DNA of 64,000 nucleotides, from NCBI GenBank assembly GCA_016870515.1, contig VGBL01000001.1, positions 1 through 64,000 on the forward strand, written 5' to 3'. The translations under genes were made by a program, and so were the position numbers. Source of the DNA: Actinomycetota bacterium (GTDB taxonomy: Bacteria; Actinomycetota; Actinomycetes; S36-B12). The notes under the pieces were generated by a model that made no database searches, had not been told where the DNA came from, and saw only the letters and a program-made list of their open reading frames with translations. Shown here piece after piece: positions 34,442 through 37,964 of this stretch (the first letter of the stretch is position 1; the number at the start of each line of letters is the position of its first letter).

Positions 34442-35392
34442 CTAGTTGCTCGGTCGGGGCGCGACTTCCGCGAGGTCGACCCCGTCATTGCGCGGGGGCA
34501 TGAGCGACGCCGTGGAGGTCCGCACCGCTACATCTCGCGAAATCGGTACGACGAGGATCCATGGGAACGCCGTGCCATCGATGATCGAGTAGGCCTGAAC
34601 TCGTCCGGTCAGTGACGTGTTAGGGCTCATCTCTCCCGGGGAGATCAGCCAGCGCAGGCGTACCGAACGGTCGCCCGGCGGGTCTAGATCCTGGGCGCCG
34701 AGTCCGCGCAGTGCCGTGCCGTCGAGGGGAGTCAGCACAACACGCTCGGCGCGGCTTTGCACATCAGCGGTAATCACGAGTGTGCGATCACGAAAGAAGA
34801 CATCGATGAGCGCTGAGGTCGGCTCTAACACGGGGGCCTGCCCCCCAGCCGAGCACAGCCTCACCATCAACTGAGCCACCTCATCGCGCACTGACTCGGC
34901 GATGGGCACCACGGTGCCCTCACTGGTCACCAGGAGTTCCCTTGGTGAAGCACCGGCGGTCAGGCAGTCCGAGGGGGCAAGGACGACATCCGCGTTGACG
35001 GTCTGCCCTGCGGGGATCGCCGTGGGCACGACGGCCGACACGATCACCTCGGGCGAGGCGGGAGCTGGACTGACGAGAGCGCTGGCGCGCGGATCGCCTT
35101 CGACCGTCAGGCGCGCCCACACGGCCGGAGCAACCGCGCCCCCTGGCGTGCCCAGTCCTCCCACCCACCCGGAGTCGCCATCCTCGACCGTCAGGCTCGC
35201 TCGGCCGATCACCTCGACGGCCGAGATCTCCAGCCCGTAGGACCGCGGAGCTTGCTGCGACCACCAGCGCCAACCCGTGATGACCGCGCTGGCCACGATG
35301 CCCAGGGCGATAAGGCCGACCAGCGCTGCGACGAGAGGTCGGCGCGACGGACGCGCCCTCTCGTCGGGGCGACCCTGCTCGAGCACCTCCAT
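34442..35392 (-). CDS. Hypothetical single-pass membrane protein
   Basis: 316 residues: a basic cytoplasmic N-terminus, one membrane helix ('LVAALVGLIALGIVASAVIT', about residues 20-40) and a long beta-rich extracytoplasmic part. No family motif recognised. It lies 9 bases from both its convergent neighbour and the end of the dehydratase-like gene upstream on the same strand, so it may be co-transcribed with that broken gene. The even composition and long hydrophilic ectodomain suggest a surface or envelope protein. Confidence 0.6.
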   Translation of the reverse strand: MEVLEQGRPDERARPSRRPLVAALVGLIALGIVASAVITGWRWWSQQAPRSYGLEISAVEVIGRASLTVEDGDSGWVGGLGTPGGAVAPAVWARLTVEGDPRASALVSPAPASPEVIVSAVVPTAIPAGQTVNADVVLAPSDCLTAGASPRELLVTSEGTVVPIAESVRDEVAQLMVRLCSAGGQAPVLEPTSALIDVFFRDRTLVITADVQSRAERVVLTPLDGTALRGLGAQDLDPPGDRSVRLRWLISPGEMSPNTSLTGRVQAYSIIDGTAFPWILVVPISRDVAVRTSTASLMPPRNDGVDLAEVAPRPSN

Positions 35393-35401
35393 GCCTTGAC
35401 G

Positions 35402-36382
35402 CTAAGGCGAGCCAGCCTCACTCGCACTCGGGAGCGAGAGGGCAACGACTTCAAGATCGTGCCGCACCATGGTGGCGATGACGTCGACGGCCGAATCCGA
35501 AGACTTCCAGCCGAGCGACTGCCCAATGCGGCTGGGATTCGCTCTCACGGCATACGACGATCCGCTCCGCGCCAGGGCGGGATCGAGGCGGATGAGGTCC
35601 CACCGGTCCTCAAGGCCCGCGGTGGCGAGAGCTGCCTCGACGACATCGCGCAGGCTGACACTGACGCCCGTCGCCACGACGAAGTCGCCCGCGTCAGGAG
35701 CGTTGGCGATGAGGGTCATGGCCCGTGCGTACTCCGGTGCGTGCCCCCAGTCGCGTATGACGCTGAGGTCGCCGAGGGCCAACTCCGCGGCCAGGCCGCA
35801 CGCCAGTGCGGCCACACCAGCCGAGATTCGGCGGAAGACGTAGGGCAAGGGGCGCCGGACGGATTCGTGATTGCTAAGGATGGCATTGGCGACGTTGAGA
35901 CCGAACTCGTCGCGATAGCGGCAACCGAGCACATGTGCCTGCGCCTTTGACTCGGCCTAGGGGGAGTTGGGCCGCATGGGCGTGAACTCGTCGATGACAT
36001 CGCCCGCGTCGCCAAACATCTCCGAGCTGGACGCGTGTAGGACGCGGATGGACGGGTCGACGTCACGGACTGCTTCGAGGATCCGCGCATAGCCGGAGAG
36101 ATTTGCTGCCATCGTGGCAGCGGGATCGACCCAGGACCCGGACACCGAGCTGCGCCCGGCAAGGAAGACGACAATCGAGGGCTGTGTGGACTCGATCAAT
36201 CCGTGCGCGCGCGTGTGCGGGTCCGCGAGATCAATGGCGATGCGTCCAGCCAGCGCCGGACTGTCGGGCTCGGTGGTCAGGTAGGTGCCGTGCACGACAT
36301 AGCCGGCGTCGTGGAGTTCTTGAGCGACCCAAGGACCGTCCTGTCCGCTGGCGCCCAAGACGAGTGCGCGCTTCTCGGCCAC
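35402..36382 (-). pseudogene. NAD-dependent epimerase/GDP-mannose 4,6-dehydratase-like gene with TAG at the catalytic Tyr codon
   Basis: From GTG 36382 the frame reads 'ALVLGASGQDGPWVAQELHD' (GxxGxxG), 'HASSSEMFGDAGDVIDEFTP', 'MRPNSP', then TAG (35957-35959), then 'AESKAQAHVLGCRYRDEF' and 'ILSNHESVRRPLPYVFRRI'. The TAG falls exactly on the Tyr of the YxxxK motif (NSP-Y-AESK in relatives). The rest continues in the same frame to 326 codons, so the gene is intact apart from this codon. Active relatives dehydrate GDP-mannose for deoxysugar synthesis. It is either a nonsense mutant or a sequence error; protein made only up to the stop would lack the active site. Confidence 0.8.
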
Positions 36383-36438
36383 CTGATCAGAGTAGGTGCC
36401 GCGCGGTCGGGGCCGCAGCCCGTATGGCGGCCGCAAGG

Positions 36439-36485: not shown

Positions 36486-37838
36486 TCAGTTACCCGAGCA
36501 GGGTGCGGAGTAGTCAAAAGCCTGCGCCGTCTTGCCGACGTAGCCCATCAGCAGCGTCTCGACGCCGAGGGCGCCTTCTTCGGACGGGATGTTGATCGAC
36601 ACGGAGCGGTCGACGTCCGCGGGCGGACCACCGACGAGGGAGTTCGGCAGAGCGCCCTCGTAGTCGACCTCGACACCACCCTGGACAGCCGCGACCAGGC
36701 CCTCACGGGTCAGGTCACCGTCGGCCGCTGCCTTCTCCAGCGCGGCCTTGAGTGGGTACTGCCACACCCAGCCGTAGGTGTAGCCATCGTTAGCCGGGAG
36801 GATCCCCTCGCCCAGCTGGGCCTTCATCGCGTCCATCGCTGCGGACGGAGTTCCGAAGGTGCCGGTCGTGCCGACGTTGGTGTAGGTCTTGAGGAGCGCG
36901 GGAGCGGCCGCCGTCTGCAGGAGCAGCGGGTTCCAGGTCGGTGCTGCACCGAGGAACTGTCCCTTGAACCCGGAGGCCACGGCCTTGCCGATGATCTCTG
37001 CCGCTTCGCCTGGGCCGACGCCGATGGCTACCACGTCTGCGCCCGAATCAAGGACTGCGGACACTGCGGCGTCCTGATTGCCAGCCGTGGCGTTGGGAGC
37101 AGTCTCGACGGTGCCCGCGAACTCGACCCCGTTAGCGGTGGCCCACTTCTCAGCACCCGCGGCGTAGTCGCCGCCGTAGTCACCGGGGTAGCCCACCGCG
37201 ATGAGTTTGGTGATGGGCGTCTTGTTTTCGACCCACCAGTCGAGGCCGCCCATGGCGGCTATGCAGTAAGACGCACCCGACTCGAGGATGACGCCGCCGT
37301 CGGTCTCGGGGAACTGCCAGCCGGACCACCATGAAGCCGGGACTCCGATGACGTTGTCGGCCTCCATGTCAGGCAGGATCGCCTGTGTCTGCGGCGTGCC
37401 CAGCGTCTGGGCTAGCGCAAGGACGTTGGGCTCGATAGCGCGGTACTCCTGGCTGTGCACTGCCGGGTCGTATTTATTGTCGCGCGTGTTGGCTGCCATG
37501 TTGACGTCGAAGCCCGAGATGCCACCGCGCTCGTTGACGTCTTTCCAGAAGTCCTGCTGGCCGGTGACCACCTGGGTCGCCAGCGGAGCGAACGGGCCTT
37601 CGGTCAGGTCGGAAAGGACACCGAGATAGATGCAGCCGTTCTCAGGGTTGATGGCCTCCGGGCACGGCTCGTCGGTGACGCCGATGTCGAAGACGATGCC
37701 CTCTCGCGGGTTGGGGCCCGCGTCGCTTGACGATACCGACGCAGAGGGGGTGCTGCTGCCGCCTCCGCCGCATGCGGTTAACACCAGCGCCGCGGCGCCC
37801 AGCGCTGCCGCCACCGTGGTCGTGCTACGAGCCTTCAC
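36486..37838 (-). CDS. Branched-chain-type ABC transporter substrate-binding lipoprotein
   Basis: 450 residues from GTG 37838 behind GGAGGG. The lipoprotein signal has the lipobox 'VLTACGGGG', so the protein is anchored outside the membrane. The periplasmic-binding-protein type I (LivJ-like) fold shows 'GCIYLGVLSDLTEGPFAPLA', 'FWKDVNERGGISG' and 'VAIGVGPGEAAEIIGKAV'. It is transcribed divergently from the ATPase and permease genes with which it should form one importer. Because an acyl-CoA ligase lies in that operon, an organic or fatty acid ligand is more likely than an amino acid; this is inference. Confidence 0.88.
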   Translation of the reverse strand: MKARSTTTVAAALGAAALVLTACGGGGSSTPSASVSSSDAGPNPREGIVFDIGVTDEPCPEAINPENGCIYLGVLSDLTEGPFAPLATQVVTGQQDFWKDVNERGGISGFDVNMAANTRDNKYDPAVHSQEYRAIEPNVLALAQTLGTPQTQAILPDMEADNVIGVPASWWSGWQFPETDGGVILESGASYCIAAMGGLDWWVENKTPITKLIAVGYPGDYGGDYAAGAEKWATANGVEFAGTVETAPNATAGNQDAAVSAVLDSGADVVAIGVGPGEAAEIIGKAVASGFKGQFLGAAPTWNPLLLQTAAAPALLKTYTNVGTTGTFGTPSAAMDAMKAQLGEGILPANDGYTYGWVWQYPLKAALEKAAADGDLTREGLVAAVQGGVEVDYEGALPNSLVGGPPADVDRSVSINIPSEEGALGVETLLMGYVGKTAQAFDYSAPCSGN

Positions 37839-37964
37839 AAACCCTCCCCTGTCGAGGACATGCCGACGGGCGGAATACCCGCCCGGGCCGCGCGGGCGAC
37901 CAGCCTCCACACTGTGCCAGGGATCTGATCGCGGCGCCAGGTAGATCCCGCCATGATAGCGGTG

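Follow-up and report, generated by a model that had tools for sequence, protein, structure and literature searches.

The GMD-like gene and its surroundings

The window, the whole stretch of 64,000 nucleotides analysed here, covers positions 1–64000 of contig C1 in a draft genome of 2.42 Mb (G000; 61 contigs, estimated 96.7% complete). Within it, a gene similar to that of GDP-mannose 4,6-dehydratase (GMD) lies between two neighbours on the minus strand:

34442..35392, minus strand: downstream neighbour, the 'MEVLEQG' protein (no Pfam family above cut-off)
35402..36382, minus strand: GMD-like extended-SDR gene, with a GTG start and 326 positions followed by a terminator, interrupted once
35402-35404, minus strand: the gene's own terminator, TAG
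35957..35959, minus strand: in-frame TAG, codon 142, at the tyrosine position of YxxxK (from the translation and alignments)
35960..36382, minus strand: part expected to be translated under standard decoding, 141 residues
36440..36470 (approximate), minus strand: G+C-rich terminator-like hairpin between the upstream gene and the GMD-like gene (by eye)
36486..37910, minus strand: upstream neighbour, a periplasmic binding protein (PF13458 of Pfam)

Read from 36382 to 35402, the gene has 327 codons including the terminal TAG, the first being GTG. The TAG at codon 142 is the sole in-frame stop ahead of the terminator and stands in the context P-N-S-P-[TAG]-A-E-S-K. The initial annotation had reported, with no strand given, a TAG at the catalytic-tyrosine codon of an otherwise uninterrupted frame; both points hold, and the strand is the minus strand. 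The G+C contents at the three codon positions are nearly equal on the two sides of the stop (0.69/0.51/0.79 before and 0.71/0.52/0.78 after), so that the sequence looks like a single frame interrupted once.

In a functional extended SDR, both the Tyr and the Lys of YxxxK are encoded. Here, TAG occupies the position of the Tyr and the codon for Lys146 is present. The expected product of 141 residues corresponds to the NAD(P)-binding half and is devoid of the active-site Tyr and Lys. The earlier statement that the stop abolishes the active site is thus correct as regards the tyrosine codon, but it understates the consequence, since under ordinary decoding only about 141 of the 326 residues would be made. 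The idea that the two halves are expressed separately finds no support, as the nucleotide-binding motif and the YxxxK pair do not occur together in either half.

The order periplasmic binding protein/GMD-like protein/'MEVLEQG' protein is common to G001 (apparently Actinomycetales bacterium mxb001), where four genes (three transporter-like and one regulator-like, named by eye) lie between the GMD-like gene and that of the periplasmic binding protein. It is also common to G008 (apparently an uncultured actinobacterium, LaPlata-7m-b), as far as the end of the contig. In both loci (L074 and L076, respectively), the upstream periplasmic binding protein gene is closely similar to that of the window (by eye), and in G008 a similar hairpin precedes the GMD-like gene (by eye). 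A relative of the 'MEVLEQG' protein occurs in all 11 genomes of the genus searched (the window's own included) and adjoins the GMD-like gene in G001. In two further loci that were read, those of G005 and G009, the downstream neighbour is present and the stretch upstream of it shows other genes. Just upstream of the GTG, a TANNNT hexamer resembling a −10 element can be seen by eye in both orthologs (window 36375-36400; 1570-1600 of L005, the G001 ortholog); its place beside the start codon suggests a leaderless transcript.

Protein family and the tyrosine position in relatives

With the stop read as Tyr, the protein scores 224.9 bits on PF16363 (GDP_Man_Dehyd), well above the gathering cut-off of 27 bits, and spans the entire profile (1-332 of 332). 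With X at the stop, the score is 217.4 bits. On the GMD equivalog model TIGR01472 (NCBIfam; cut-off 415), the same protein reaches 179.1 bits and the intact ortholog L005, at 181 bits, is also far below the cut-off. An intact canonical gmd paralogue does exist in the same genome (L002, on contig C46) with 505 bits on that model. Alignment A1 contains four further GMD-family rows (L002, L006, L008, and L013), of which two were scored on the model: L002 passes and L013, with 391 bits, does not. The designation "GDP-mannose-dehydratase-like" is therefore appropriate at the level of the Pfam family, and these scores do not identify the protein as a true GMD. Judged from its sequence, the gene is a GMD-like extended SDR of putative substrate, and the divergent proteins, that of the window and L005, possibly represent another nucleotide-sugar enzyme.

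In comparison with GMD, the window protein keeps the GxxGQDG and SSE motifs, the lysine of YxxxK, and the NHES and RDWG regions; the difference at the active site is the TAG in place of the Tyr codon. The protein also differs by the absence of about 13 residues that follow 'VHG' in the four further GMD-family rows of A1, all from the genus. The same residues are missing in L005, and the gap falls just after the first beta-alpha-beta unit, or glycine-rich region. The loop formed by these residues presumably binds NADP. A more distant relative (L119, 37% identity) also seems short at this gap (by eye).

The best matches among solved structures are the GDP-mannose 4,6-dehydratases 1rpn, 2z1m, and 1db3, and codon 142 stands opposite the tyrosine of the SPY motif in all three of these alignments, the ones listed among 14 hits. 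These structures are from Pseudomonas, Aquifex, and E. coli, respectively. By counting along the 1db3 alignment, codon 142 corresponds to Tyr156, and T132, E134, and K160 stand opposite S119, E121, and K146; these four residues of 1db3 are presumably those with catalytic roles.

Among the 11 genomes of the genus, a full-length ortholog is found in G001, with 62% identity by search and 65% over the aligned gene (83 of 141 positions before the stop and 123 of 176 after it). The two loci also share the downstream neighbour and the missing 13 residues; they differ in that the window gene has TAG, whereas the G001 gene is intact with a Tyr codon. A comparison with nearest relatives, which the initial annotation had advised, gives a uniform answer. 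Tyr is present at the site in each of the five other rows of A1, as in the three structure alignments, and in the relative from G150, which is L119 and has no internal stop. L007, L010, and L023 likewise carry Tyr in YxxxK. The ortholog fragment of G008 is cut by the contig end before the site of the stop. A TAG kept at the equivalent site, as expected for programmed readthrough, is absent from L005 and from the G150 relative, both of which have Tyr. The "stops inside" some relatives were also considered as possible recoding and discarded: in L008, L010, and L023 they fall upstream of the homologous part, and in L013 and L004 at the gene ends.

Among the 85 genomes of the family, the window's own included, only two have a match at E<=1e-60, to which the contig-end fragment of G008 can be added. 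Among 166 genomes of the order, three have a match at E<=1e-55, the third being G150. Because so few genomes have a match, and because other genes lie upstream of the 'MEVLEQG' neighbour in G005 and G009, the GMD-like gene is accessory.

Decoding of TAG in the genome

The coincidence of the stop codon with a Tyr position is the only observation in favor of a reassignment of TAG to Tyr, total or partial, in this organism. RF1 is present (465.8 bits with the prfA model, cut-off 423.25), and no CTA anticodon was found among the 48 tRNA places detected with Rfam or the 46 distinct sequences given by ARAGORN; as the genome is estimated to be 96.7% complete, a further tRNA may have gone unseen. The sole tRNA-Tyr has a GTA anticodon and an ordinary anticodon stem of five pairs. 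For one tRNA (L071, G000 C4:132523-132596), ARAGORN gives no clear anticodon. This tRNA carries a CAT loop and is an altered version of the initiator tRNA, matching the intact L055 almost completely except for a change on the 3′ side of the anticodon arm.

Terminator use was assessed in a sample of 452,583 bases (the window and 388,583 further bases, 18.7% of the genome). Of the 214 long, largely non-overlapping open frames of this sample, a few of which may be spurious, 97 end with TAG, 106 with TGA, and 11 with TAA. The GMD-like gene itself ends with TAG. The frequency of TAG, nearly that of TGA, seems high for a window with about 66% G+C; TAG stops are expected to be rarer in a G+C-rich genome.

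The same sample contains 37 candidates for a stop within a single frame (24 TAG and 13 TGA), with coding-like sequence on both sides. The filter used a weak codon-usage score, at least 60 open codons on each side, and a comparison of the six frames, and it can miss cases. A filter with a stricter score and no six-frame comparison gave 50 candidates; the Pfam tests cover the 37 of the six-frame filter. Only two of the 37 stops cross a Pfam domain: the TAG of the window gene, alone among the 24 TAG candidates, and a TGA in a multiply damaged gene. For 33 others, the best Pfam stretches (taking only the best stretch per family) end before the stop or start after it, and the remaining two (window:1449-2531 and window:33890-34612) have no Pfam family at E<=1e-5.

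The damaged gene, outside the window, encodes a SIS-domain protein (NagB-II/GlmS-like; G000 C1:98400-99500, or about 14400-15500 of L078). Its in-frame TGA is at C1:98886-98888, and the homology moves between two frames. The Pfam match reaches one residue past the TGA, and the NCBIfam NagB-II match continues well beyond it.

With RF1 above its cut-off, no CTA tRNA found, TAG as terminator of 97 of the 214 long frames, and a single TAG inside a domain among the 24 candidates, reassignment, global or partial, was rejected and we give it practically no credence. The suggestion in the initial annotation that the codon might be read as Tyr is accordingly disfavored, by the relatives as well as by RF1, the tRNAs, and the terminators.

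Origin of the interrupted frame

The frame is ended early, at codon 142 of 327, relative to the intact ortholog L005, as in a pseudogene. Two features do not match a plain pseudogene: neither further lesions nor relaxed constraint are visible in the gene beyond the stop. Each of the two divergent proteins was compared at the columns of A1 that are invariant in all remaining rows, namely the second divergent protein and the four GMD-family rows. The window protein is the lone exception at four such columns, the intact ortholog at eight. Between the window gene and the ortholog, pN is 0.24 and pS 0.70 (0.27 vs. 0.65 in the first half and 0.22 vs. 0.74 in the second), although a pairwise dN/dS of this kind integrates a long period, over which synonymous sites have come close to saturation, and is a poor guide to the recent past. 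As no decay is visible, the stop must either have arisen very recently or be spurious. The constraint that can be seen is as compatible with a sequence error, or with a gene that still functions, as it is with a recent mutation.

We consider it probable that the TAG arose very recently as a nonsense allele, either fixed or still segregating, in an accessory sugar-nucleotide gene of the GMD-like type. A single substitution would have converted the tyrosine codon into an ordinary terminator; as already proposed in the initial annotation, one base change suffices, and two single-base changes turn a Tyr codon into a stop. RF1 would then terminate translation after about 141 residues, with no working enzyme made. 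Too little time would have elapsed for more decay, which would leave the remaining frame intact. The loss would be tolerated because the gene is accessory and because a canonical GDP-mannose dehydratase is still encoded, intact, elsewhere in the genome. This account takes the base to be real, the change to be recent, and the product to be inactive.

The strongest competing explanation is that the draft assembly has a wrong consensus or base call at this position and that the real gene is intact, with a tyrosine codon. It is a possible explanation, which we hold to be clearly less likely than a recent nonsense allele. The draft state of the genome (61 contigs), the absence of decay in the rest of the gene, and the intact ortholog all agree with it. 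In addition, the base at 35957 comes immediately after GGC on the plus strand, a context that is error-prone in Illumina reads. Against it, a consensus substitution should be unlikely a priori in a contig of 205 kb, and stops inside domains are rare: in the sample of 452,583 bases, two of the 37 candidates cross a domain, and one of these lies in the multiply damaged gene. These same counts led us to reject an assembly ridden with errors throughout; a single error at the TAG base is the form in which the error explanation keeps its lesser likelihood.

In-frame stops in bacterial genes have been surveyed by Belinky et al. (2021; PMC7918605). According to these authors, many such stops are associated with dN/dS below 1 and are common in constrained genes, with carbohydrate transport and metabolism among the commonest categories. 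The sources they list are annotation artefacts, sequencing errors, pseudogenes, and premature stops in functional genes. The window gene likewise has a single stop in an otherwise constrained frame; it differs in that the cases shown by Belinky et al. are common to several genomes, whereas the stop of the window is known from one genome only. Among the source classes given there, sequencing error or pseudogene fits it best.

The same authors argue from in-frame stops with dN/dS below 1 for readthrough (Belinky et al. 2021; PMC7918605). Applied to the window gene, low-level readthrough of TAG by a near-cognate tRNA, with insertion of Tyr or another residue, would keep the gene functional and yield a small amount of full-length enzyme. 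The preserved frame and the other preserved active-site positions are consistent with this, but a recent mutation would preserve the frame equally well. With RF1 present, TAG heavily used as terminator, no suppressor tRNA found, and an ortholog that has no TAG, we regard readthrough as improbable. Its more specific form, in which the near-cognate tRNA-Tyr would decode the codon as Tyr at a low rate and the active-site stop would act as a brake keeping the expression of an accessory nucleotide-sugar enzyme low, appears more doubtful still.

In itself, the stop is of little importance, be it a nonsense allele of recent origin or an error in the sequence: the gene is accessory and the actinobacterium uncultured. 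If a full-length product were made, an active-site Tyr supplied through UAG despite a normal RF1 would be surprising.

The position of the stop can be compared with chance. In total, 75 single-base changes would create a stop in the gene: 73 elsewhere and two at codon 142 taken as Tyr. A hit on the catalytic Tyr thus has a frequency of about 2 in 75, or about 1 in 40 per broken gene, which is unusual without being striking, since Tyr codons are among the easiest to turn into a stop, and it is not evidence of design.
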